Assembly: GCA_028714235.1 (NCBI GenBank)
Contig: JAQTMQ010000006.1
Span: 1-44,236 of the forward strand
DNA from: Candidatus Iainarchaeum sp.
Lineage (GTDB): Archaea > Micrarchaeota > Micrarchaeia > Burarchaeales > Fermentimicrarchaeaceae
Direction of reading: 5' to 3'
Length of the DNA: 44,236 nt
Shown: in pieces, positions 1,112 to 15,792 of the stretch
How the letters are laid out: each line of letters opens with the position of its first letter
Position numbering within the stretch: position 1 is the first letter of the stretch
The notes under the pieces: model-generated
Database searches by the model: none
Told to the model about the DNA's origin: nothing
The model's input: only the letters and a program-made list of their open reading frames with translations
Translations under genes and position numbers: made by a program

Positions 1112-1233
1112 CGCAACTGTTTCGGGAAAGCGGCTTTAATTGGTTTGCCCGGCGCGCCCCCCGGGAAAAAACGCTTTCCGCCAACCGAAACTGCTTTAAC
1201 ATGTTTCCCGCCAAAACAGCTCAAGGTGGTCCG

Positions 1234-1920
1234 ATGCGTTTCCCAGGCTTCGAGGTTCCCGACAAGAAGATGGCGTTCCTGCTCGTTTTCTCCCTCGTCT
1301 CGCTCGCCGCGGGCAGGCTCAACTTTTCGCCCCTCCTCGGGACGGAGAACGCGAGCTTCACCTTCTTCCAGTTCCTCGCGCCAATCGGCGGCGGGATAAT
1401 CGGGCCGTTTTACGGCGCGGCCGCCGCGCTTCTCGCCCAGGCGCTCAACTTCATCGCTTTCGGCGGCGGCACGGACCTCTTCAGCCTCCTCCGCTTCCTC
1501 CCCGCGGTCTTCGCCGCATGGTATTTCGGAAGCAGGTCGGGAAACGCGCTCATCGTTCCGGCCGCTTGCATGGCGCTCTTCTGGCTTCACCCGGTCGGGG
1601 CGCAGGCGCCGCTTTACGCGCTGTACTGGCTCATCCCGATCGCGGCCAAGCTGTTTTCGGGCAACCTGTTCGCGCGCTCGCTTGGCGCCACGTTCACCGC
1701 GCACGCCGTCGGCAGCGTGGCGTTCATTTACGCCATAGACTCCGCGCCCGCCCTCTGGACGGCGCTGATTCCCGTAGTCGCGTTCGAGCGCCTGCTGTTC
1801 GCCTCCGGGATAGCCGTCTCGTACGTTGCCGCGAACGCCTTGCTTGAAGCGCTTTCGGCCCGCGTGGACCTCTCGTTCCTCAACCTGGAAAAGAGGCGCG
1901 CGCCGCTGAAAGCCGAATGA
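1234..1920 (+). CDS. polytopic membrane protein, ECF transporter S-component-like
   Basis: Multiple hydrophobic helices with FLAPIGGGIIGPFYGAAAALLAQALNFIAFGG, resembling ECF-S folds; ATG 1234 preferred over 1201. Confidence 0.5.
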   Translation: MRFPGFEVPDKKMAFLLVFSLVSLAAGRLNFSPLLGTENASFTFFQFLAPIGGGIIGPFYGAAAALLAQALNFIAFGGGTDLFSLLRFLPAVFAAWYFGSRSGNALIVPAACMALFWLHPVGAQAPLYALYWLIPIAAKLFSGNLFARSLGATFTAHAVGSVAFIYAIDSAPALWTALIPVVAFERLLFASGIAVSYVAANALLEALSARVDLSFLNLEKRRAPLKAE

Positions 1921-2854: not shown

Positions 2855-2929
2855 ACTGTGGGGCTGGAGACCGTAGCCTTATTATTGCTGGATTCCGCGG
2901 GAATAGCGGGCGCGCGAGCTCCCGCCGGG

Positions 2930-3592
2930 GTGGTGGCAGTGGAAAAGACGAAAGACTTGCCCGTCAACGTGAGAGATTCTTTGGTTCGCGACGCGAAAGC
3001 GATTTTTGCAATTCAAGGCGCTTCCCCGGTTTGCTCCCTTTACCCGAAATCCGGCGCCGTCAACCCGAAAAAAGAAAGCGACGCATTAACGCTAATCGAG
3101 GCGGCCGAAATTGATTCCAGGGGATTGGGCTGGAAGGACTCCGGGAAAGTTTACGAGGCGGTCGGCAGGCTGGTCAAAACGGCTTTGGCGGACGGCCTCG
3201 CGGAAGACGAGGAGGCGAACAATCGCGCGCTCGGCTTCTTCAAGACGGTCGGGGACAACTCGGGCCAGGGCTGCAAAGCGTATGAAATACTGCGGCGGGC
3301 CGCCCAGGAAGAGGCCGGAACCTTGTTTCTTGCCTCCTCCGCTTCCTTGCTCAATGACCCCGACTCGCTCGAAGACCGCGACAAAACCTTGAAGGCGGCA
3401 GGCATCCTGGCCGCTGTCGGCAGGTACCCCGTCCCGTACTGGCTTATCGGCGCAGGCTTCGCCCTTGGGCACATGGAAGGCCCTTGGAAAAAGGAAGGCA
3501 AAACACCCGACTCGCTGTCCTCGCTGTCCGCACGGCTTTTCGAGCTCGCGGAAAGCGTCGCGATGCGGAATGCCGCAAATCGCGAAGAATGA
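2930..3592 (+). CDS. uncharacterised helical-repeat protein, related to the next two ORFs
   Basis: ORF 2858..3592; GTG 2930/2933/2939 preferred because a TTATTATT element lies at ~2880. Contains CSLYPKSG...VGRLVKTALADGLAEDEEANNRALGFF, similar to the downstream ORFs. Confidence 0.65.
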   Translation: MVAVEKTKDLPVNVRDSLVRDAKAIFAIQGASPVCSLYPKSGAVNPKKESDALTLIEAAEIDSRGLGWKDSGKVYEAVGRLVKTALADGLAEDEEANNRALGFFKTVGDNSGQGCKAYEILRRAAQEEAGTLFLASSASLLNDPDSLEDRDKTLKAAGILAAVGRYPVPYWLIGAGFALGHMEGPWKKEGKTPDSLSSLSARLFELAESVAMRNAANREE

Positions 3593-3637
3593 CCGCAAGC
3601 ATTATTATTGCCGAAATGAGCGTTATGCAAACGGTGA

Positions 3638-4249
3638 GTGGGTTTGGCTTTGACTGCCGTTAAGCCGGTTCAGGACAGGAACGAGTTAATCGCCGCTGAA
3701 ATAGCGAAGATTTACCCGAAAGGCTCGGACTCGCACTATGAAGAAGCGGCAGCGAGCGTTGCGAGGGCGAAACTCAGGCAATGCCTCTCCCGCGCGACTG
3801 ACGACGAGCGCGCCCTTGCGCGGAAGAGGTTCGCGGATACGGCGATGCGCGCTGCCGAGGAGGGGATGGCTTACGCCAACATGCTCAATGCGCTGAAATA
3901 CTTCAAGGGCGTCAAGGCGGAAGGGCTGCCCGAAGAAACCGAGGCCGCGCTCGAAGTCTTGTTCGGCGAGAAGCCGATTGCGCCGGGGACAGACGGTGCC
4001 GCGGAGAGCAAGAAGTCCGTGCTCGAATTCGTGAAAAGCGTGATTCCCAAATCGCCTGACGGAAAGTGGGACGATAAAAGCGCGCATGCCGTGATGCGTT
4101 TCGCAATGCTTGTGAGCGCGCTTGGCGCGGCCAAGGGACTCGAGGAGCTTGAAAAAATCCGTTGCATGGAGCCGTTTCCCCCAGTGAACGTCCGTCAAAA
4201 GATTGACCGCGTGCTTGAGGATTCCAAGCCGAAAACGCCGGCGGACTGA
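3638..4249 (+). CDS. uncharacterised helical-repeat protein (same family)
   Basis: IAKIYPKGSDSHYEEAAASVARAKLRQCL...AMRAAEEGMAYANMLNALKYFKGV aligns with the repeat unit in 4271..5428; start GTG 3638 or TTG 3650. Confidence 0.65.
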   Translation: MGLALTAVKPVQDRNELIAAEIAKIYPKGSDSHYEEAAASVARAKLRQCLSRATDDERALARKRFADTAMRAAEEGMAYANMLNALKYFKGVKAEGLPEETEAALEVLFGEKPIAPGTDGAAESKKSVLEFVKSVIPKSPDGKWDDKSAHAVMRFAMLVSALGAAKGLEELEKIRCMEPFPPVNVRQKIDRVLEDSKPKTPAD

Positions 4250-4270
4250 TTTTTCAAGGTGGTTGCAGGC

Positions 4271-5428
4271 ATGGCTACGAAACAGTTGCAACGGAGCGGA
4301 ACCCTCCGCGACGAATTCGAAAACCTTTATCCGGCGGGCAGGCGCGGGTACAGCGAGCAGGAGACGCAGGCCGCGCGAAAAAGGATTGCCAATGAGTTCA
4401 TTGAAGGCAACGAGTCCAAGAAAGGCGTCATCCGGCAGCACGCGCGCGAAACCGCGAGGCGCGCGGCCGTTGACGGCATCTGCGGGGACGAGGCGCTGAA
4501 CCGGCGCGCGATGGATTACGCTAAGGACGTCCGGCGCCTCGGGATGCCGGCCCTGGAAAAGGACGAGCTTTTTTTGGCGCTCGCGGAAGTCCTGCAGAGC
4601 GCCGCGGAAAGGGGGTACCACACGCCGGATTTCGACAAGGTCGCGAAGATGGCGGCCAAGGCGGCAGCCGTGCTCGGGGAGCTCGGCGACGCGCGCGCCC
4701 TCCCGCTCCTCCGCGCGGCGAGCACGAGGCTGGGCTCGCATGCGCCGTTCCAGGCGGAAGCGTTGTGCATGGACAACGTCATCGCCGCGCTGAAGCATTC
4801 CGCAACGCGCCCGGAGCAGGCGTTTTGCGTCGCCGCCCACGCTAACGCCCAGGAAAAGAGGGAGGTTTCCATAACGCAGGTGGCGAGCGACTCCTTCGGC
4901 GTCGAGGCGGTGCTTGACGCCGTCCAGAAAATGTACCCCGAAGGCGGCGGGTTTGACGCCAGGGAGGCCGGGCGCGCGAGGCGAATCGTGAAACAGTTTT
5001 TCGTGAATGCCTCGCGCGAGGACAAGCCGCGGGTGATGGAGGCGATGGAGTCGGCCGCTTCCCGCGCGTTGAGCGACGCGCTTTCGGCTGACAAGGCCCG
5101 GAATACGGCCGCGAAAGGATATTATCTCGACGTGCGGTTTCGCGGCACCGGGGCCGAGCGCAGCGCCGCGCTCAACCTGGCCGCCCGCGCACTGGAAAAA
5201 ACGCTGGCCGCGGAGCCGATGCGCCAGGAGGGCGTGACCGCGGCACTCAAGTGCTCCGGGATGATTGTGTTGCTGGGAGACAGGCGCGGGCTCCCGCTCC
5301 TGCAGCGCGCGCTTGACGAGCTTGCGGGAAGGCTGGGCAAGGACAATGAATCGGTTGCCAAGCTCGGCGATTTAATCAACGACTTCGCCGGGTCCGGGAA
5401 CTCGCTTGCGCCCGGCGCGCCGAAGTGA
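4271..5428 (+). CDS. uncharacterised two-repeat helical protein with HEAT-like motifs
   Basis: Internal duplication: ENLYPAGRRGYSEQETQAARKRI... and QKMYPEGGGFDAREAGRARRI...; each half ends in a HEAT-like motif (AAAVLGELGDARALPLLRAA / CSGMIVLLGDRRGLPLLQRAL). GGTGG SD before ATG 4271. Confidence 0.8.
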   Translation: MATKQLQRSGTLRDEFENLYPAGRRGYSEQETQAARKRIANEFIEGNESKKGVIRQHARETARRAAVDGICGDEALNRRAMDYAKDVRRLGMPALEKDELFLALAEVLQSAAERGYHTPDFDKVAKMAAKAAAVLGELGDARALPLLRAASTRLGSHAPFQAEALCMDNVIAALKHSATRPEQAFCVAAHANAQEKREVSITQVASDSFGVEAVLDAVQKMYPEGGGFDAREAGRARRIVKQFFVNASREDKPRVMEAMESAASRALSDALSADKARNTAAKGYYLDVRFRGTGAERSAALNLAARALEKTLAAEPMRQEGVTAALKCSGMIVLLGDRRGLPLLQRALDELAGRLGKDNESVAKLGDLINDFAGSGNSLAPGAPK

Positions 5429-5467
5429 GCCTCCGGGAAACGTGCTCCATGGGCCGGAAAGCGGGAG

Positions 5468-5491
5468 CGGAAACGGTTTAAAAGGTTTCCG
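5468..5491. promoter_or_regulatory. perfect 7-bp inverted repeat CGGAAAC-N10-GTTTCCG upstream of scpB
   Basis: Read directly; followed by CTATATACTATTAATT (5501-5516), a TATA-like stretch. Confidence 0.5.
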
Positions 5492-5550
5492 GTAATAACA
5501 CTATATACTATTAATTGGCAGGCGGGAGAAAAGCGGTGAAGGCGACCTTG

Positions 5551-6201
5551 ATGGGCGACAACGAGGACGAATTCGAGGAAATGCACGCAGAAGGCGAATG
5601 CGCGGGCTGCGGGGAGGCCGTGAAGGAAGGCGAGTTCGAGGCAGCCGCGGCGAAGGGCGAGAGGACGGTCCCGAAACTGATTGAAGGCGAGAAGGCGCCC
5701 TTCGAGGCGTCCTCCCCCGCCCCGCAGAAAGGGCAGGCGTCCCTCGGAACCCTTGAGCCGAAGCGCGTAATCGAGGCCGCGCTCTTCATGTCCTCAAAGC
5801 CGCTCACCCTCGAGGAGCTGGGCAGGTTCGCCGGAGTCGCCGCGCCCGGCTTCATCGAGGGCCTCGTGAAGGAGCTCGCCAAAGGCTACTCCGAATCCGG
5901 CTCGTCCATCACCATCGCGCTCGAGCCCGGAGGCTACATCATGCGCCTTAGGGCGGAATACGCGGCAAAAGTGGCTCCGTTGGCGCAGGAATCGGAGATT
6001 AGCCGTGGCGCGCTCAAATTGCTGGCTTATGTGAGCCAGAATGAAGGAATAGAGCAAAGCATGGTTGCCAATACGCTTGGAAGCACCGTTTATGACCGAG
6101 TTCAGGAATTGGTCGAAAAGGGCTTCTTGGACAAGCAAAAGAAGGGCAGAACAAGCGTTTTGCGCACAACGCAGAAGTTCCGGGACTATTTTGGCGCCTG
6201 A
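5551..6201 (+). CDS. scpB: segregation and condensation protein B (ScpB)
   Basis: PKRVIEAALFMSSKPLTLEELGRFAGV...LKLLAYVSQNEGIEQSMVANTLGSTVYDRVQELVEKGFLDKQKKGRTSVLRTTQKFRDYFG; typical ScpB winged helices. ORF opens at 5515; ATG 5551 preferred. Confidence 0.85.
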   Translation: MGDNEDEFEEMHAEGECAGCGEAVKEGEFEAAAAKGERTVPKLIEGEKAPFEASSPAPQKGQASLGTLEPKRVIEAALFMSSKPLTLEELGRFAGVAAPGFIEGLVKELAKGYSESGSSITIALEPGGYIMRLRAEYAAKVAPLAQESEISRGALKLLAYVSQNEGIEQSMVANTLGSTVYDRVQELVEKGFLDKQKKGRTSVLRTTQKFRDYFGA

Positions 6202-7411: not shown

Positions 7412-8197
7412 ATGAAGGCTCAGGTTTACTCTGCCGGCGGCGCGAAATCGCGCGAAGTGGAATTGCCCAAGGTGTTCGATTCGGTGGTCAGGACGGACCT
7501 CATATCGCGCGCGGTCCTGCACGAGGCGAGCCTCGCGAGGCAGCCGAAGGGCTCGTACAAGCTCGCGGGAATGCAGACGACCGCGGGAATGAGGGGAAGG
7601 AAGGAGGCGTACCGCGCAATCAAGAACAAGGGCATTTCCCGCGTTCCCAGGGAAAAGCTTCCCAAGGGAAGGTTCGGCCGCGTGAGAATCGTGCCGTTCG
7701 CGGTCGGCGGAAGGCGCGCGCACCCGCCCAACCCCGAAAAGATTCTCGTCGAGAAAATGAACGGGAAGGAGTACGGGTTGGCGCTGAGGAGCGCGATTGC
7801 GGCGACCGCCTCGGCCGGATTGTCCAAGGCGCGCGGCTACGCCAGCATCTCTCCCGTAGTTCTTGAGGACGCGTTCGAGGCGATTGCGAAGACGGGCGAG
7901 CTCGAGGTCCTGTTCGGGAAAATCGGGCTCGGCCCGGAAATAGAGCGCGTCGTCCGCGGGACGAGAACCAGGAGCGGCGTGCGCGCGAAGAGGAGCGGCT
8001 CGAAAAAGGTGCCGCGCGGAATCCTCGTCGTGGTCTCGGTCCCTGAGGCGAAGGCGGCGCGCGCGGCAAGGAACCTTCCGGGCGTTGACGTCTGCACTCC
8101 CAAGAGCCTGACGGTTTCGCTTCTTGCGCCGGGCTGCGCCCCGGGCCGCCTCACGGTGTGGAGCGAGGGCGCGCTCAAGGAGGTTTCGGGCTGGTAA
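7412..8197 (+). CDS. rpl4: ribosomal protein L4
   Basis: MKAQVYSAGGAKSREVELPKVFDSVVRTDLISRAVLHEASLARQPKGS; position after L3. Confidence 0.95.
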   Translation: MKAQVYSAGGAKSREVELPKVFDSVVRTDLISRAVLHEASLARQPKGSYKLAGMQTTAGMRGRKEAYRAIKNKGISRVPREKLPKGRFGRVRIVPFAVGGRRAHPPNPEKILVEKMNGKEYGLALRSAIAATASAGLSKARGYASISPVVLEDAFEAIAKTGELEVLFGKIGLGPEIERVVRGTRTRSGVRAKRSGSKKVPRGILVVVSVPEAKAARAARNLPGVDVCTPKSLTVSLLAPGCAPGRLTVWSEGALKEVSGW

Positions 8198-8209
8198 CCG
8201 GTGGTTTTG

Positions 8210-8458
8210 ATGGTGCTGCTTTACCCTGTAACGACCGAGAAGGCGATTGGGCTGATTGAGAAGGAGAACAAAATCATTTTCGTAGTCGAGCCGAAGGCGA
8301 CGCGCGCGGAAGTGAGGCGCGAAGTCGAGGGAAGGTTCGGCGTCAAGGTCGCGAAGGTGAACATCATGCGCTCGCTTGACGGGAAGAAGAAGGCGTACGT
8401 GAAGCTCACGAAGGATTTCAAGGCGGACGACGTGGCGGCGAAGCTGAAGGTCGCCTGA
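8210..8458 (+). CDS. rpl23: ribosomal protein L23
   Basis: MVLLYPVTTEKAIGLIEKENKIIFVV...; GGTGGTTTTG SD before ATG. Confidence 0.95.
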   Translation: MVLLYPVTTEKAIGLIEKENKIIFVVEPKATRAEVRREVEGRFGVKVAKVNIMRSLDGKKKAYVKLTKDFKADDVAAKLKVA

Positions 8459-8485
8459 GTCGCGTCCGGTTTGCGGTGGTATGTG

Positions 8486-9235
8486 ATGGGCAAGGCATTG
8501 AGGCAGCAGAAAGCGGGCAAGGGCTCCCCCGCGTACCGGAGGCCGTCGCACCGCTTCAGGAGCGAGGCGAAGTTCAGGCCGCTTGACGAAATCGAGAAGG
8601 CCGGGCGGCTTGACGGCGAGGTCGTCGGCTTCGTTGACGCGCCGGAGCGCTCGTCCATCCTCATGGACATCGTTTTCAGCGACAGGACGAGGCTCACGCT
8701 CATCGCGCCCGAGGGCGCCGAGGTCGGCGGAAGGGTTTCGGTCGGCTCCAAGGCGGACATAGAATTCGGGAACGTCCTTCCGCTTGGCGCGATTCCGGAG
8801 GGCCTGCCCGTCTACAACATAGAGGTGGCTCCCGGAGACGGCGGAAAGCTCGTGAGGGCGTCCGGCGGCAGCGGGACCATCGTTTCGCGCGAGAAGGGCC
8901 TGGTTTACGTAAAGCTGCCTTCCAAGAAGGTGGTCACGTTCGACCCGCGCTGCAGGGCGCAGGTGGGCGTGGTCTGCGGGGGCGGGAGGCTTGACGCGCC
9001 CATGCTCAAGGCGGGGACCGCTTTTTACAAGCACCACGCGCTGAACCGCAGGTGGCCGCACAGCAGGGGAGTGAAGATGAACGCCTACAACCACCCGTTC
9101 GGCGGCAAGCAGCACCACAAGGGCAAGTCCTCGTGCGTCTCGCACGGCACGCCTCCGGGCAGGAAGGTCGGCCACATCGGCGCGAGGAGCACCGGAAGGA
9201 GGAGCGCGAAGATGGAGGAAGCGAAGCTCGCTTGA
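8486..9235 (+). CDS. rpl2: ribosomal protein L2
   Basis: MGKALRQQKAGKGSPAYRRPSHRF...; HHKGKSSCVSHGTPPGRKVGHIGARSTGRR. Confidence 0.95.
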   Translation: MGKALRQQKAGKGSPAYRRPSHRFRSEAKFRPLDEIEKAGRLDGEVVGFVDAPERSSILMDIVFSDRTRLTLIAPEGAEVGGRVSVGSKADIEFGNVLPLGAIPEGLPVYNIEVAPGDGGKLVRASGGSGTIVSREKGLVYVKLPSKKVVTFDPRCRAQVGVVCGGGRLDAPMLKAGTAFYKHHALNRRWPHSRGVKMNAYNHPFGGKQHHKGKSSCVSHGTPPGRKVGHIGARSTGRRSAKMEEAKLA

Positions 9236-9250
9236 AATCGGTGATCGATT

Positions 9251-9643
9251 ATGGCTCGCAAGTTTAACTATCGCGGAAGGGCGCCGGAGGATTTGCGCAG
9301 GATGACCTCGGAGGAGGCGCTGCCCCTCCTGACGTCGAGGGCGCGCAGGTTCATAAAGAGGGGGAACAAGCGCTACCGTGGGCTCGTCGAGAAGGTCAAG
9401 GCGGCGGGCGCCGCGGGCGGGCAGGACGTCATCAAGACGCACATCCGCGAGGCGGTCATCCTTCCCGACTGGGTGGGGCTCAAGTTCGGGGTCCACAACG
9501 GGAAGGAGTTCAAGACGGTCGAGATTACCCCAGAAAAGATTGGGAAACGGCTTGGCGAATTCGCGCACACGACCGGCCCGGTGAAGCACAGCGGCCCGGG
9601 CGTCGGCGCGACAAGGGGCTCCAAGTTCATCCCGCTGAAGTGA
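9251..9643 (+). CDS. rps19: ribosomal protein S19
   Basis: MARKFNYRGRAPEDLRRM...GVHNGKEFKTVEITPEKIGKRLGEFAHTTGPVKHSGPGVGATRGSKFIPLK. Confidence 0.95.
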   Translation: MARKFNYRGRAPEDLRRMTSEEALPLLTSRARRFIKRGNKRYRGLVEKVKAAGAAGGQDVIKTHIREAVILPDWVGLKFGVHNGKEFKTVEITPEKIGKRLGEFAHTTGPVKHSGPGVGATRGSKFIPLK

Positions 9644-9654
9644 GCGTGGTCTGC

Positions 9655-10344
9655 ATGCCTGAATTCGGCTATTCGATGGATGTTCCGGCGGGAAAGGATT
9701 CCAAGTTCGCGCGCGCCCAGGTCTACGGGATTGACGCGTCGTGGAAGGACCTCGGCGCGGTTTGCGCGAACCTCGTGGGCCTGACCGCGGAGGAGGCGGA
9801 CGCGCTGCTCGTGAAGGCGGGCAGGGGCGAGTTCCCCATCCGCTTCAGGAAGCACAACAAGAAGATGGGGCACCGCGGCGAGCTCGGCGGAAAGAAGGGA
9901 AGGTACCCGGAGAAATGCGCGAGGATTGCGCTCAAGGTGCTCCGGAACGCGGTCGCGAACGCGAACGCGCGCGGGCTTTTCGGCGAGCTGGTCGTCGTCC
10001 AGTCCTCGGCGAACAAGCAGGGCTCGTTCCCCCGGGTCGCGCCGAGGGGGAGGTGGCGCAGGGCGAACTACGAGACTGCGCGCATGGAAATCGTGCTCAA
10101 GGAGGCGGCCGAGGCGAAGCCGGACGTGAAGGCGAAGAGGAAGAAGGAGTTCGAGGCGCGCGCCGAGCGGAAGAGGAAGGCGCGCGAAGAGGCGGAGAAG
10201 GCGCTCGAGAAGGAGCTCGCCGCGCACGAGGGCCACGCCCACGCGCACGAGGGCGAGGGGGCGGAGGAGAAGAAGCTGACTCCCGAGGAAAAGGAGGCGG
10301 AGAAGGCGCTCGAGAGGGCGCAGATGTCGCAGGGGCAGGGATGA
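9655..10344 (+). CDS. rpl22: ribosomal protein L22 with charged C-terminal extension
   Basis: MPEFGYSMDVPAGKDSKFARAQVYGIDASWKDLGAVCANLVGLTAEEADALLVKA; K/E/A-rich tail. Confidence 0.93.
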   Translation: MPEFGYSMDVPAGKDSKFARAQVYGIDASWKDLGAVCANLVGLTAEEADALLVKAGRGEFPIRFRKHNKKMGHRGELGGKKGRYPEKCARIALKVLRNAVANANARGLFGELVVVQSSANKQGSFPRVAPRGRWRRANYETARMEIVLKEAAEAKPDVKAKRKKEFEARAERKRKAREEAEKALEKELAAHEGHAHAHEGEGAEEKKLTPEEKEAEKALERAQMSQGQG

Positions 10345-11273: not shown

Positions 11274-11579
11274 ATGGCCGACATATGCCCGAAGTGCGGG
11301 CTTCCGACCGAGATTTGCGCCTGCGAGGCGCTCGTCAAGGAGGAGGCGGTCCGCATAAAGGTTTACACGACTAGGAAGAGGTTCGGCAAGCTTGTCACCA
11401 TCGTGGAGGGGCTGAGCGCGTCCGACCTCAACGGCGCGGCGAAGGAGCTGAAGAGGAAGCTCGCCTGCGGCGGCTCGGCGAAGGACGACTACATCGTGCT
11501 CCAGGGGGACCACAAGCGCAAGGTCCGCCAAATCCTGGTCGGGATGGGCTACAACGAGAACAGCATCGACGTGAGGTGA
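11274..11579 (+). CDS. translation initiation factor aIF1 (SUI1)
   Basis: MADICPKCGLPTEICACE...RFGKLVTIVEGL...KELKRKLACGGSAKDDYIVLQGDHKRKVRQILVGMGY. Confidence 0.95.
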   Translation: MADICPKCGLPTEICACEALVKEEAVRIKVYTTRKRFGKLVTIVEGLSASDLNGAAKELKRKLACGGSAKDDYIVLQGDHKRKVRQILVGMGYNENSIDVR

Positions 11580-11872
11580 AGCGCGTGATTACGCCGGACA
11601 ACGTCCTCATCCATGAGCTCATCGGGCTCGAGGCCGAGGTCGTCCGGTGCGCTGACAGGGGAATGGAGGGAGCCAAGGGGAAAGTGGTTGACGAGACGAG
11701 GAACACCCTCGTCATGGAGACCGGGGCTAAGGAGAAGACGGTTCCGAAAAAGCCATGCCTCTTCCGCTTCACGCTCCCGGACGGGAGGAAGGTCGAGGTC
11801 GAGGGGAAAATGATTGCGTTTGACCCGGTTGAAAGAAGCAAGAAGCTTGCCCAGCATTGCAGGGTGATTTGA
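11576..11872 (+). CDS. rnp1: ribonuclease P protein component 1 (Rpp29/Pop4)
   Basis: Standard position between aIF1 and S17; LIHELIGLEAEVVRCADRGMEGAKGKVVDETRNTLVMETG. Confidence 0.88.
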   Translation: MKRVITPDNVLIHELIGLEAEVVRCADRGMEGAKGKVVDETRNTLVMETGAKEKTVPKKPCLFRFTLPDGRKVEVEGKMIAFDPVERSKKLAQHCRVI

Positions 11873-12159
11873 TGGTTGACGAGAAAAGCGGCGGGAAAAG
11901 CATCAGGACGCGCGGCGCCGTCATGGAGGGGAGGGTAGTGAAGGACCGGGCCAAGAAGACGGTCATCGTGCAGCGCGACCTGGTCCGCCCCGTCCCGAAA
12001 TACGAGAGGTCAATCCGCGTCCGCTCCAAGGTGCCCGCGCACAACCCCGACGGAATCGGGGCGAAGGCGGGCGACTGGGTGCAGATTGAGGAGTGCAGGA
12101 AGCTTTCGAAGACGAAGGCATGGGTTGTCACCAAGGTGTTGAGGAAGGCTGGTGAATAA
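11872..12159 (+). CDS. rps17: ribosomal protein S17
   Basis: GRVVKDRAKKTVIVQRDLVRPVPKYERSIRVRSKVPAHNPDGIGAKAGDWVQIEECRKLSKTKAWVV. Confidence 0.94.
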   Translation: MVDEKSGGKSIRTRGAVMEGRVVKDRAKKTVIVQRDLVRPVPKYERSIRVRSKVPAHNPDGIGAKAGDWVQIEECRKLSKTKAWVVTKVLRKAGE

Positions 12160-12161
12160 TC

Positions 12162-12560
12162 ATGATGGGTCTAAGCAGCCGCGTGGTGCGCGGCCTACAG
12201 GTCGGCTCATTCGTCAACGTGGACGACAACAGCGGCGCCAAGTACGCGCAGATTATCGGGGTGCTCGGCTGGAAGGCGCGCAGGGGCAGGGTCCCGAAAG
12301 TCGGCGTCGGCGACCTCGTGATTATCGCGGTGAAGAGGGGCACGCCGCAGATGAAGAAGAAGGTTGAGCGCGGCGTGGTAGTCAGGCAGAGGAAGGAGTT
12401 CAGGCGCGCGAGCGGCGGCCGCGTCATGTTCGAGGACAACGCGGTGGTCCTCGTTGACGACCAGGGGCTCCCGAAGGGGACGGAAATCAAGGGCGCGATT
12501 GCGAGGGAAGTCGCCGAAAGGTACCCGAAAGTCGCGGGAATCGCGGCCGCGGTCGTGTAA
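12162..12560 (+). CDS. rpl14: ribosomal protein L14
   Basis: VGSFVNVDDNSGAKYAQIIGVLGWKARRGRVPKVGVGDLVIIAVKRGTPQMKKKV. Confidence 0.95.
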   Translation: MMGLSSRVVRGLQVGSFVNVDDNSGAKYAQIIGVLGWKARRGRVPKVGVGDLVIIAVKRGTPQMKKKVERGVVVRQRKEFRRASGGRVMFEDNAVVLVDDQGLPKGTEIKGAIAREVAERYPKVAGIAAAVV

Positions 12561-12580
12561 TTCGTTTGCCGGTGATGTTG

Positions 12581-12997
12581 ATGGCTTTGAGCGATTCGGT
12601 GCAACCGAGGAAGCAGAGGAGGGCGCGCAGGGAGGCGCCGCTGCACGCGAGGCAGAAGCTCGTGCACGCGCACGTTTCAAAGGACGCGCGCGAGAGGAAC
12701 AGGATTGAGAGGAGGAGCGCGGCAGTGCGCGAGGGGGACAAGGTCAGGATAATGCGCGGCAAGTTCAGGGGGCACACCGGAAAGGTGACCGAAGTGGACT
12801 TGAAGTCGCTCAAGGTTTATGTTGAGGGAGCCGTTGCGCGGAAGGCGAAGGGGCAAGAGGTCCCCGCCGCCATCGAGCCGTCAAACCTGTGCATCACGGA
12901 GTTTGACTTTTCGGACAAGCGGCGCAAGGCGATTTTGGAGCGCAAGGGGATGCCGGGAAGCGGCGCGGCGAATGCGGGCGCGCCGGCTTCCGGATAA
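12581..12997 (+). CDS. rpl24: ribosomal protein L24
   Basis: MALSDSVQPRKQRRARREAPLHARQKLVHAHVSKDARERN...VREGDKVRIMRGKFRGHTGKVTEVD (KOW). Confidence 0.94.
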   Translation: MALSDSVQPRKQRRARREAPLHARQKLVHAHVSKDARERNRIERRSAAVREGDKVRIMRGKFRGHTGKVTEVDLKSLKVYVEGAVARKAKGQEVPAAIEPSNLCITEFDFSDKRRKAILERKGMPGSGAANAGAPASG

Positions 12998-13008
12998 GGT
13001 GATAGGTT

Positions 13009-13710
13009 ATGGCAGGGAAAGGGGGCTCACCGCACTTGAAGCGCCTTGCGGCGCCGAGGTACGTTCACGTTCCAAGGAAGAGGTTCGTGTGGCTGGCCAA
13101 GCCCATGCCGGGAACGCATTCGGCGGGCGAGTCGGTCGCATTGGTGACGCTCGTGCGCGACATCCTCGGGTTTTCCGACAACGCGCGCGAGGCGAGGAAA
13201 ATCATCCGCGAGGGCGGGGTGCTCGTTGACGGCAGGGCCGTGAAGCGCGAGCGCTTCCCCGTCGGGCTCATGGACGTCGTGAGCCTTCCGTCGGTGAAAA
13301 AGTTTTACCGCGTTTCGGTGGACAGGCAGGGGAGGATGAAGCTCGTGGAGGCAAGCGAGGCGGGCTCGGACTACAAGCTTTGCGTCGTGAAGAGGAAGGG
13401 CAACGTGAGGGGAAGCCTGACGCAAATCGGCCTGCACGACGGCAGGAACCTCGTTTACGGCGAGGACGTGCGCGTGGGCGACACGGTGAAGCTTTCCGTG
13501 CCGGCGCAGAAGGTGCTCGGCGTAATCCAGCTCAAGGAGTCCGCGAAATGCCTCGTCACGAAGGGCAAGCACGCGGGCGTTCTCGCGACGGTCGAGAGGC
13601 TGCACCCGAGGAGGAGCAGGCGCGACGCCGAGGCGACGCTCAAGAGCGGCGAGGAGGAGTTCACCACCGTGAAGAAATACCTGTTTCCGGTGGGCGGGGA
13701 GCTCGACTGA
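13009..13710 (+). CDS. rps4e: ribosomal protein S4e
   Basis: GGSPHLKRLAAPRYVHVPRKRFVWLAKPMPGTHSAGESVALVTLVRDILGF. Confidence 0.95.
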   Translation: MAGKGGSPHLKRLAAPRYVHVPRKRFVWLAKPMPGTHSAGESVALVTLVRDILGFSDNAREARKIIREGGVLVDGRAVKRERFPVGLMDVVSLPSVKKFYRVSVDRQGRMKLVEASEAGSDYKLCVVKRKGNVRGSLTQIGLHDGRNLVYGEDVRVGDTVKLSVPAQKVLGVIQLKESAKCLVTKGKHAGVLATVERLHPRRSRRDAEATLKSGEEEFTTVKKYLFPVGGELD

Positions 13711-13726
13711 GCGCAGGTGAATGTTT

Positions 13727-14269
13727 ATGGCTGAAGCTGGCAAGGGGAACCCGATGAGGGACATCCGCGTGGAGAAGGTCACGCTCAACATCGGAGTGGG
13801 CGAATCCGGGCAGAAGCTCGAGAACGCGAAGGCGCTCCTCACGAAGGTTTGCGGGAAGAAGCCGATGACCACGCTCGCGAAGGTGAGGAGCCCCACGTGG
13901 AGAATCAAGCCGGGCGACCCAATCGGCGCGAAGGTCACGCTGCGGGGGGGCGACGCGGTCGGCGTGCTGAAGCGCGCGCTCGAGGCGGTCGACAAGCGGC
14001 TTGAAGAGTCCTCGTTCGACCGGCGCGGGAACTTCTCGTTCGGGGTGCGCGAGTACATAGACTTCCCGGGCGTGAAGTACGACCCGAAAATCGGGATTCT
14101 GGGCTTTGACGTCTGCGTGACGCTCTCAAGGAAGGGCGCGCGCGTGACGAGGAGGAGGCGCATGAAGGCGCGCAGGCTGGGCGCGGGGCACGTCGTGACC
14201 GCGGACGAGGCGCGCGCTTTCGCCGCCAGGGATTTCGGGGTCGAGTTTGCGGAGGCTGCGGCCAAGTGA
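13727..14269 (+). CDS. rpl5: ribosomal protein L5
   Basis: [67 protein letters not shown]. Confidence 0.95.
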
Positions 14270-14288
14270 TTGGCTTCGGGGGATGTTC

Positions 14289-14477
14289 ATGACCGAGCGA
14301 AAAAGGAAGAGGAAGGCTGCCGCGGAGAAGAAGTCGGTTTCGAGGCTGAAGGGAAGGGGGAACCGGGTGTGCAGGTTCTGCGGCAACGCGCGCGGGCTCG
14401 TCAGGAAGTACGGCCTGAACGCATGCAGGCGCTGCTTCCGCGAGCGCGCCGAGCACATAGGCTTCAGGAAGTTTTGA
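14289..14477 (+). CDS. rps14: ribosomal protein S14 (zinc-type)
   Basis: [41 protein letters not shown], CxxC...CxxC; N-terminal [11 protein letters not shown]. Confidence 0.92.
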
Positions 14478-14488
14478 AGGGTGTTTGA

Positions 14489-14884
14489 ATGGTGCTTTGC
14501 AACGATCCGCTGGCTAACGCGCTCAACACTATCCGGACGCATGAGAGGGCCGGGAAGCGCGAGTGCGACATAGTGCCGGTCTCGAATTTCGTGAAGGAGG
14601 TGCTCCTGCTTTTCCAGAAGCACAACTACATCGGCGAATTCGAGTTCGTGGACGAGGGGAAGGACGGGCACTTCAAGGTGAAGCTGCTCGGCAACATCAA
14701 CGACACGAACATCGTGAAGCCGCGCTTCTCCGTGAAGAAGGCGGATTGGAACAAGTGGGAGCAGCGGTTCATCCCGAGCAAGGACTTCGGCATGCTCATC
14801 GTCTCCACCCCGTACGGCCTGATGACGAACGCGGACGCGAAGAAGAAGGGGACCGGCGGCAAGCTCGTCGCATACGTTTATTAG
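14489..14884 (+). CDS. rps8: ribosomal protein S8
   Basis: CNDPLANALNTIRTHERAGKRECDIVPVSNFVKEVLLLFQKHNYIGEFEFVDEGKDGHFKVKL. Confidence 0.95.
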   Translation: MVLCNDPLANALNTIRTHERAGKRECDIVPVSNFVKEVLLLFQKHNYIGEFEFVDEGKDGHFKVKLLGNINDTNIVKPRFSVKKADWNKWEQRFIPSKDFGMLIVSTPYGLMTNADAKKKGTGGKLVAYVY

Positions 14885-14893
14885 GTGATTCCA

Positions 14894-15397
14894 GTGGTTG
14901 CAATTCCGCAAGGCGTAACGGTTGCCGTTTCAGGCCAGAAGGTCTCGGTGAAGGGGCCAAAGGGCGCATCGGAGCGCGAGTTCAAGGTGAAGGGCCTCGT
15001 GATAAAAAGCGACGGCGCAAGCGTCGCGGTTTCGGAAAAGGATGGCGCGAAGCTCGGGCCGGCAATCCTGAACACGGTCGAGTCGCACATAACCAACATG
15101 GTGAAGGGCGCGGCCGAGGGCTACGAGAAGAAGATGCGGGTCGTTTACGCGCACTTCCCGATTTCGCTCGAGACGAAGGGCAACAAGTTCGTGATAAAGA
15201 ACTTCATCGGCGAAAAGAAGAGCCGCGAGGCGGTCATCGTCGGCGCGACGAAGATTGCGGTTAAGGGCCAGGACGTAACCGTTTCCGGGCCGAGCAAGGA
15301 GGACGTGGGGCAAACCGTTTCCAACATCCGCGCGGCAGTGAAAATCAGGAACCGCGACCCGAGGATGTTTCAGGACGGGCTTTACTTGGTGGCGTGA
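14894..15397 (+). CDS. rpl6: ribosomal protein L6
   Basis: VAIPQGVTVAVSGQKVSVKGPKGASEREF...VYAHFPISLETKGNKFVIKNFIGEKKSREAVIVG; GTG start after GGTGAT. Confidence 0.94.
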   Translation: MVAIPQGVTVAVSGQKVSVKGPKGASEREFKVKGLVIKSDGASVAVSEKDGAKLGPAILNTVESHITNMVKGAAEGYEKKMRVVYAHFPISLETKGNKFVIKNFIGEKKSREAVIVGATKIAVKGQDVTVSGPSKEDVGQTVSNIRAAVKIRNRDPRMFQDGLYLVA

Positions 15398-15408
15398 CGG
15401 TGGTGTTC

Positions 15409-15792
15409 ATGGCTGAAACGACTCAAATTTCGCCGAAGAAGCTAAGGAAGCTCAGGCTCGCGAGAAAGCACCCGAGGTTCTTCCGCCAGAACCAGGGCAG
15501 GGGGACCCGCAAGCGCGTCAAGGACAACTGGAGGAAGCCGCGCGGCATCGACAACAAGAAGCGGGAAAAGGTTTCCACTTTCGGCGCGGAGCCCAACATC
15601 GGCTGGAGGAGCGCGAAGGCAATCCGCGGCCTGCACCCGAGCGGCCTGGCCGAGGTCAGGGTCGAAAACGTGGAAATGGTCGCCGCGGCCCCGGCGAAAT
15701 CCGCCGTGAGGATAGGAGGCTCGGTCGGGAAAAGGAAGCGCGAACTGATTTGCGCGAAGGCGCGGGAGCGCGGGCTCAAGGTTTTGAATTAA
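15409..15792 (+). CDS. rpl32e: ribosomal protein L32e
   Basis: LARKHPRFFRQNQGRGTRKRVKDNWRKPRGIDNKKREK...NIGWRSAKAIRGLHPSG. Confidence 0.94.
   Translation: MAETTQISPKKLRKLRLARKHPRFFRQNQGRGTRKRVKDNWRKPRGIDNKKREKVSTFGAEPNIGWRSAKAIRGLHPSGLAEVRVENVEMVAAAPAKSAVRIGGSVGKRKRELICAKARERGLKVLN

Follow-up and report, generated by a model that had tools for sequence, protein, structure and literature searches.

Three genes that lie between scpA and scpB in a Micrarchaeota genome encode four copies of one unit of about 190 amino acids, and related units occupy the same gap in two other genera. We consider the chances slightly better than even that these units form a lineage-restricted family of soluble, all-helical, HEAT/ARM-like modules, which act as general adaptors and lie beside the scp genes as a result of their insertion history. 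The analysis was based on a contig stretch of 44,236 nucleotides (hereafter, the window), for which a first-pass annotation made from the sequence alone had suggested an archaeal host. This was borne out, as the host belongs to the Micrarchaeota; among named records, the one nearest to it is an uncultured Candidatus Micrarchaeota bin.

Three genes separate scpA from scpB

As first annotated, three ORFs on the same strand split scpA from scpB, and both flanking genes were confirmed by Pfam matches. The kleisin gene scpA (1952-2854, + strand) matches PF02616 (E 3.3e-13), and alignment of its product with those of 15 relatives shows an acidic N-terminal extension, encoded in the region 1952-2100. 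The KITE gene scpB (5515-6201, + strand) matches PF04079 (E 4.3e-24) and is followed by genes for ribosomal proteins L3, L4, L23 and L2. The genes in between, all on the + strand, were named U1 (2858-3592), U2 (3638-4249) and U3 (4259-5428). Based on the N-termini of their relatives, their true starts are placed inside these ORFs, probably at GTG 2939, TTG 3650 and ATG 4271, respectively. U1 and U2 contain one unit each, with U1 being the most diverged copy, and U3 contains two, located at 4259-4873 and 4874-5428 (+ strand; unit profile matches at 4265-4870 and 4874-5419).

The GC content at the codon positions of U1, U2 and U3 follows the coding pattern of the genome, with the third-position GC being lower in U1 and U2 (0.71) than in the other genes compared (0.76-0.88). 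An antisense ORF at 3686-4840 (- strand) was rejected as a real gene because its codon-position GC does not fit the genome pattern and because the relatives back the sense strand.

The three genes encode copies of one unit

According to the first-pass annotation, the three genes share a unit of about 100 residues. The sharing was confirmed, but the size was not: the unit spans about 190 residues (180-200). It starts with a YP motif (LYP in most units), continues with an alanine-rich helix (RA..D....D......A..YF..V) and ends in a C-terminal HEAT-like hairpin. To establish mutual homology, we used a profile built exclusively from five homologous units of two other genomes. When this profile was compared with the 432 six-frame ORFs of the window, exactly these three ORFs ranked first, with E-values of 1.1e-21, 1.7e-9 (U2) and 7.3e-5 (U1), and the next ORF had an E-value of 2.1. 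The best E-value obtained with 2,000 shuffled unit copies, which served as a control, was 0.02. Moreover, alignment of the window units with the outside units using hhalign gave a probability of 98.5 (E 4e-15). U1 matched the complete unit profile, of which the window units themselves are part, with an E-value of 1.7e-49, and a self-search of the host genome linked U1, U2 and U3 weakly.

Scans of U1, U2 and U3 against Pfam, NCBIfam, PHROGs and PADLOC gave no convincing family, the conserved LYP-containing N-terminal half of the unit matched no family in Pfam, NCBIfam or PADLOC, and a sequence search of the PDB with U3 alone gave nothing useful. The unit family is thus undescribed in the libraries searched, and structurally it is of a known general kind.

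The unit is an alpha-helical, probably solenoid-like module

Resemblance to HEAT repeats had been noted for the last of the three genes. In the first unit of U3, residues 134-154 (4658-4720, + strand) form a HEAT_PBS-like motif, whose Pfam match (E 0.057; 14.4 bits versus the 20.9 required) is below the curated cut-off; in a scan of the genome, the same residues matched HEAT_PBS with an E-value of 0.0019. The unit alignment places the HEAT-like motif SGMIVLLGDRRGLPLLQRALDEL of the second unit (5255-5326, + strand) as its counterpart. Matches to Pfam HEAT_PBS or HEAT_2 were obtained for two of the nine units of the family (best E 0.024). Comparison of the family profile with solved structures gave designed alpha-Rep HEAT proteins as the leading matches, at profile positions 142-172, with E-values that sum many repeats and hence overstate the likeness. 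Nearly all of the top 21 entries are alpha-Rep designs, and the remainder are one natural HEAT protein and fusions.

Structure models took in U3 and the unit protein of G003, one of the two other carriers, with the proteins of the second, G002, left aside. AlphaFold predicted U3 to be entirely helical. Its second unit was modelled as eight helices with pLDDT values of mostly 83-94, and the helices of the first unit were of low confidence. The model of the G003 protein is confident mainly for residues 20-110, with low confidence for much of the remainder. The Foldseek neighbours are PUF, designed ARM and importin-alpha solenoids (PDB 3k49, 5mfd and importin-alpha entries; best E 7e-4, with a TM score of about 0.3), whose general helical solenoid topology the units probably share, at TM scores of about 0.2-0.33 and identities of about 10-16%.

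Given the helical model, the HEAT-like segment and the solenoid-type neighbours, the family is an alpha-helical, probably solenoid-like module. What stands of the proposed HEAT resemblance is the all-helical fold and the HEAT-like segment of U3, whereas the HEAT_PBS match stays below the cut-off and the solenoid likeness is weak; the HEAT label is plausible for the family. With the PBS-lyase-type HEAT proteins (HEAT_PBS PF03130, HEAT_2 PF13646, alpha-Rep), the units have in common a hairpin resembling AAxxLGxLGDxRALPLLxxA in their C-terminal part. They differ from them in having one such motif, below the Pfam cut-off, per approximately 190 residues, and in their unmatched LYP-containing N-terminal half.

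The family is confined to the scpA-scpB gap of three related genera

The unit profile was then run against 301 Micrarchaeota genomes. Strong matches were found only in the host (G000), G002 and G003, which are three genera of one family, and the other 298 genomes lack the units. All nine units are located in the scpA-scpB gap, and the locus is indeed conserved in two relatives, as a synteny survey showed. The gap of G003 contains a single unit gene (L006:6898-7689). That of G002 contains seven ORFs in about 8.4 kb, of which four encode a unit (L023:7372-8016, 8053-9855 in its N-terminal part, 14123-14815 and 14828-15460) and three do not (L023:9867-11354, 11351-13096 and 13131-14108). The ORF at L023:9867-11354 resembles the C-terminal part of L023:8053-9855 and forms with it a second repeated family, with 36% identity between the copies. 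A possible short motif, FEYITVRHEWDNF / VRYMRVHHWEDDF, is common to the tail of the G003 unit protein and the start of L023:11351-13096. Directly upstream of scpA, all three carriers encode a membrane protein (window positions 1201-1920) with weak likeness to the substrate-binding component of ECF transporters (PF12822, E 0.0097).

Elsewhere in the same order, outside the family to which these genera belong, scpA and scpB lie next to each other, with no other gene between them, in all eight genomes. In the wider phylum, 40 more Micrarchaeota were tallied from coordinates. The two genes are adjacent on the same strand in 28 of these genomes, where the conserved cores are separated by no more than 514 bp. 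In 11 others they are located apart or on separate contigs, and the remaining genome gave no ScpB match. The two genes are also juxtaposed in the single Micrarchaeota species examined in a previous study (PMC7055376). Since scpA and scpB are usually adjacent in relatives, the insertion is most simply regarded as derived. In the sister genus, the gap can be occupied as well. That of G001 contains nikR (PF08753, E 9e-29) together with small ORFs, which probably encode membrane proteins and a regulator, and all of these are unrelated to the units. The gap of G004, in the same sister genus, contains an antisense gene for a HEAT_2 protein, without an orthologue in the sister genomes of G004; as a relative of the units it was rejected, because it scored no better than shuffled sequences.

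A probable single origin followed by tandem duplication

In a tree of ScpA and ScpB, the three carriers form a clade against all other genomes with a support of 100, which argues for a single origin of the units. The number of units differs by genus, being one in G003 and four in both G002 and the host. In the unit tree, support was 99 for G2f with G2g, 96 for G2b with G3, and 72 for U2 with the first unit of U3, and the deeper branching was not resolved. The sister copies G2f and G2g, and the grouping of U2 with the first U3 unit, point to tandem duplication within lineages. Between G002 and G003, the closest pair of units is 44% identical, versus 72-83% for the ECF-like protein, ScpA, ScpB, L3, L4 and L2. 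Hence, the units diverge faster than the neighbouring genes, and the array looks like the product of one origin, with subsequent tandem duplication and rapid divergence.

Promoter assignments were made visually, from consensus. The sequence TTATTATTG, a possible promoter element, is present at 2879-2887 and at 3602-3610 (both + strand), 5' of the putative starts of U1 (2939) and U2 (3650), respectively. A TATA-like element, TTTAAAA, is located at 5477-5483 (+ strand), approximately 32 nt before the start of scpB. By the same visual reading, AT-rich elements are also present 5' of scpB in G003 and G002, and in each of the three carriers scpB seems to be preceded by a TATA-like element of its own.

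We propose that a single founder gene was inserted, or originated, between scpA and the operon of scpB and ribosomal protein genes, which would be transcribed from its own promoter. This would have taken place in the ancestor of the three genera and would have been followed by tandem duplication. Each module would then be a short alpha-solenoid that accommodates a partner, either a protein or a peptide, in its groove. The duplicates may have diverged toward different partners and would serve as adaptors or scaffolds; it is the fold class that suggests such a protein-binding role.

Relation to the SMC-ScpAB complex

The first-pass annotation had proposed that the three genes encode accessory subunits of SMC-ScpAB, possibly a HAWK-like element. 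Such subunits would sit next to the KITE dimer of ScpB, bound to the kleisin or to the SMC heads, and would have a HAWK-like function and a clade-specific origin. The location of nine out of nine units, in three genera, between scpA and scpB favours this explanation, and the host does encode a full-length SMC-type protein (a 1,210-aa frame on C8). Moreover, the N-terminal extension of ScpA contains an acidic motif in the carriers (DSEFDE, DSEFDE and DAEFEV) that is missing in the sister genus, although a similar motif, LTDEEF, is present in G009, a non-carrier of the same order. In addition, a published study of two Thermococcales species showed that their ScpA does not bind their putative ScpB (PMC7055376), and therefore the partners of archaeal kleisins are open to revision.

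However, a ScpA was detected in each of the 55 relatives that were checked, and nearly all Micrarchaeota that possess ScpA and ScpB lack the family, which argues against a subunit of this complex. The alignment with 15 relatives revealed no enlargement of the central region of the carrier ScpA proteins, whose length is unchanged. ScpB is intact and conserved in the three carriers (about 70% identical), so that the KITE subunit has not been replaced. The separate TATA-like element of scpB and the unrelated genes that fill the slot in the sister genus also speak against this role. U1, U2 and U3 are not KITE proteins themselves, as they do not match PF04079 and U3 is modelled as all-helical. Finally, no kinship to Scc2, Scc3, Pds5 or the condensin HEAT subunits appeared among the sequence matches to solved structures or the top 50 fold matches listed. 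Like the HAWKs of cohesin and condensin (PMC5228436), the unit proteins are of the helical-repeat type, and they are encoded beside a kleisin gene. They are much smaller than HAWKs, occur in a single archaeal clade that has kept its KITE, and gave no sequence or fold match to HAWKs.

An SMC or HAWK role, for which location is the sole direct argument, with the acidic motif of ScpA in addition, is possible but unlikely, and we consider accessory subunits of SMC-ScpAB an unlikely explanation of the units. It is highly doubtful that SMC-ScpA-ScpB gained extra kleisin-binding helical-repeat subunits that constitute an independent prokaryotic counterpart of HAWKs alongside KITEs. If the unit proteins do bind ScpA or Smc, HEAT-type regulators would have been invented separately here, alongside KITEs. 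General adaptors placed by insertion history are more likely than obligate SMC subunits, although a functional link would also explain why the position has been kept in all carriers. The position rule is drawn from few independent cases, because only three genomes carry the family. The locus provides a record of a helical-repeat family that is undescribed, evolves fast and keeps an unusually fixed position. It also serves as a warning that adjacency to scpA and scpB in one clade is weak evidence for an SMC role.

Other possible functions

The variable copy number, the low identity of the copies and the other ORFs interleaved in G002 would also fit conflict or host-interaction genes, that is, diversifying protein-binding modules for defence or host-cell contact, housed in a tolerant intergenic site. 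G002 moreover possesses separate large arrays of HEAT proteins. Such a function is quite improbable, given that the PADLOC library gave no match, the library searches showed no phage or viral relatives, no clear secretion signal was seen in the unit sequences, and no integrase was noticed at the locus.

Eukaryotic ribosomal-protein chaperones with helical repeats exist. The L3-L4-L23-L2 genes that follow scpB in the carriers, together with the importin-like ARM folds among the structural neighbours, raise the idea of dedicated chaperones or assembly factors for L3 and L4. Yet scpB sits between the unit genes and the ribosomal protein genes, G009 has the same scpB-L3 order without the family, and the similarity is not specific beyond a generic solenoid, which makes this function extremely improbable. 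The preferred reading is that of general adaptors beside the scp genes.

Other HEAT-like proteins in the genomes screened

Weak profile matches on other contigs of G002 proved to be ordinary HEAT_PBS arrays that match mainly the HEAT-like segment. Matches in G011, G112, G130 and G296 (E 0.002-0.01) involve this segment only and were not counted. The host encodes a 341-aa HEAT_2 protein (E 1.4e-13) at L074:2624-3649 (G000:C1), separate from the scp locus. In the G002 genome, 144 HEAT_PBS matches were detected, and large HEAT_PBS/HEAT_2 arrays are located on L052 (C22), L053 (C27), L054 (C25) and L055 (C30). Many of these array proteins end in an HDFG-x-R...EFxRL or RPSGVREVSERP tail, and the genes next to them encode MoxR-type AAA_5 ATPases as well as VWA-domain proteins.
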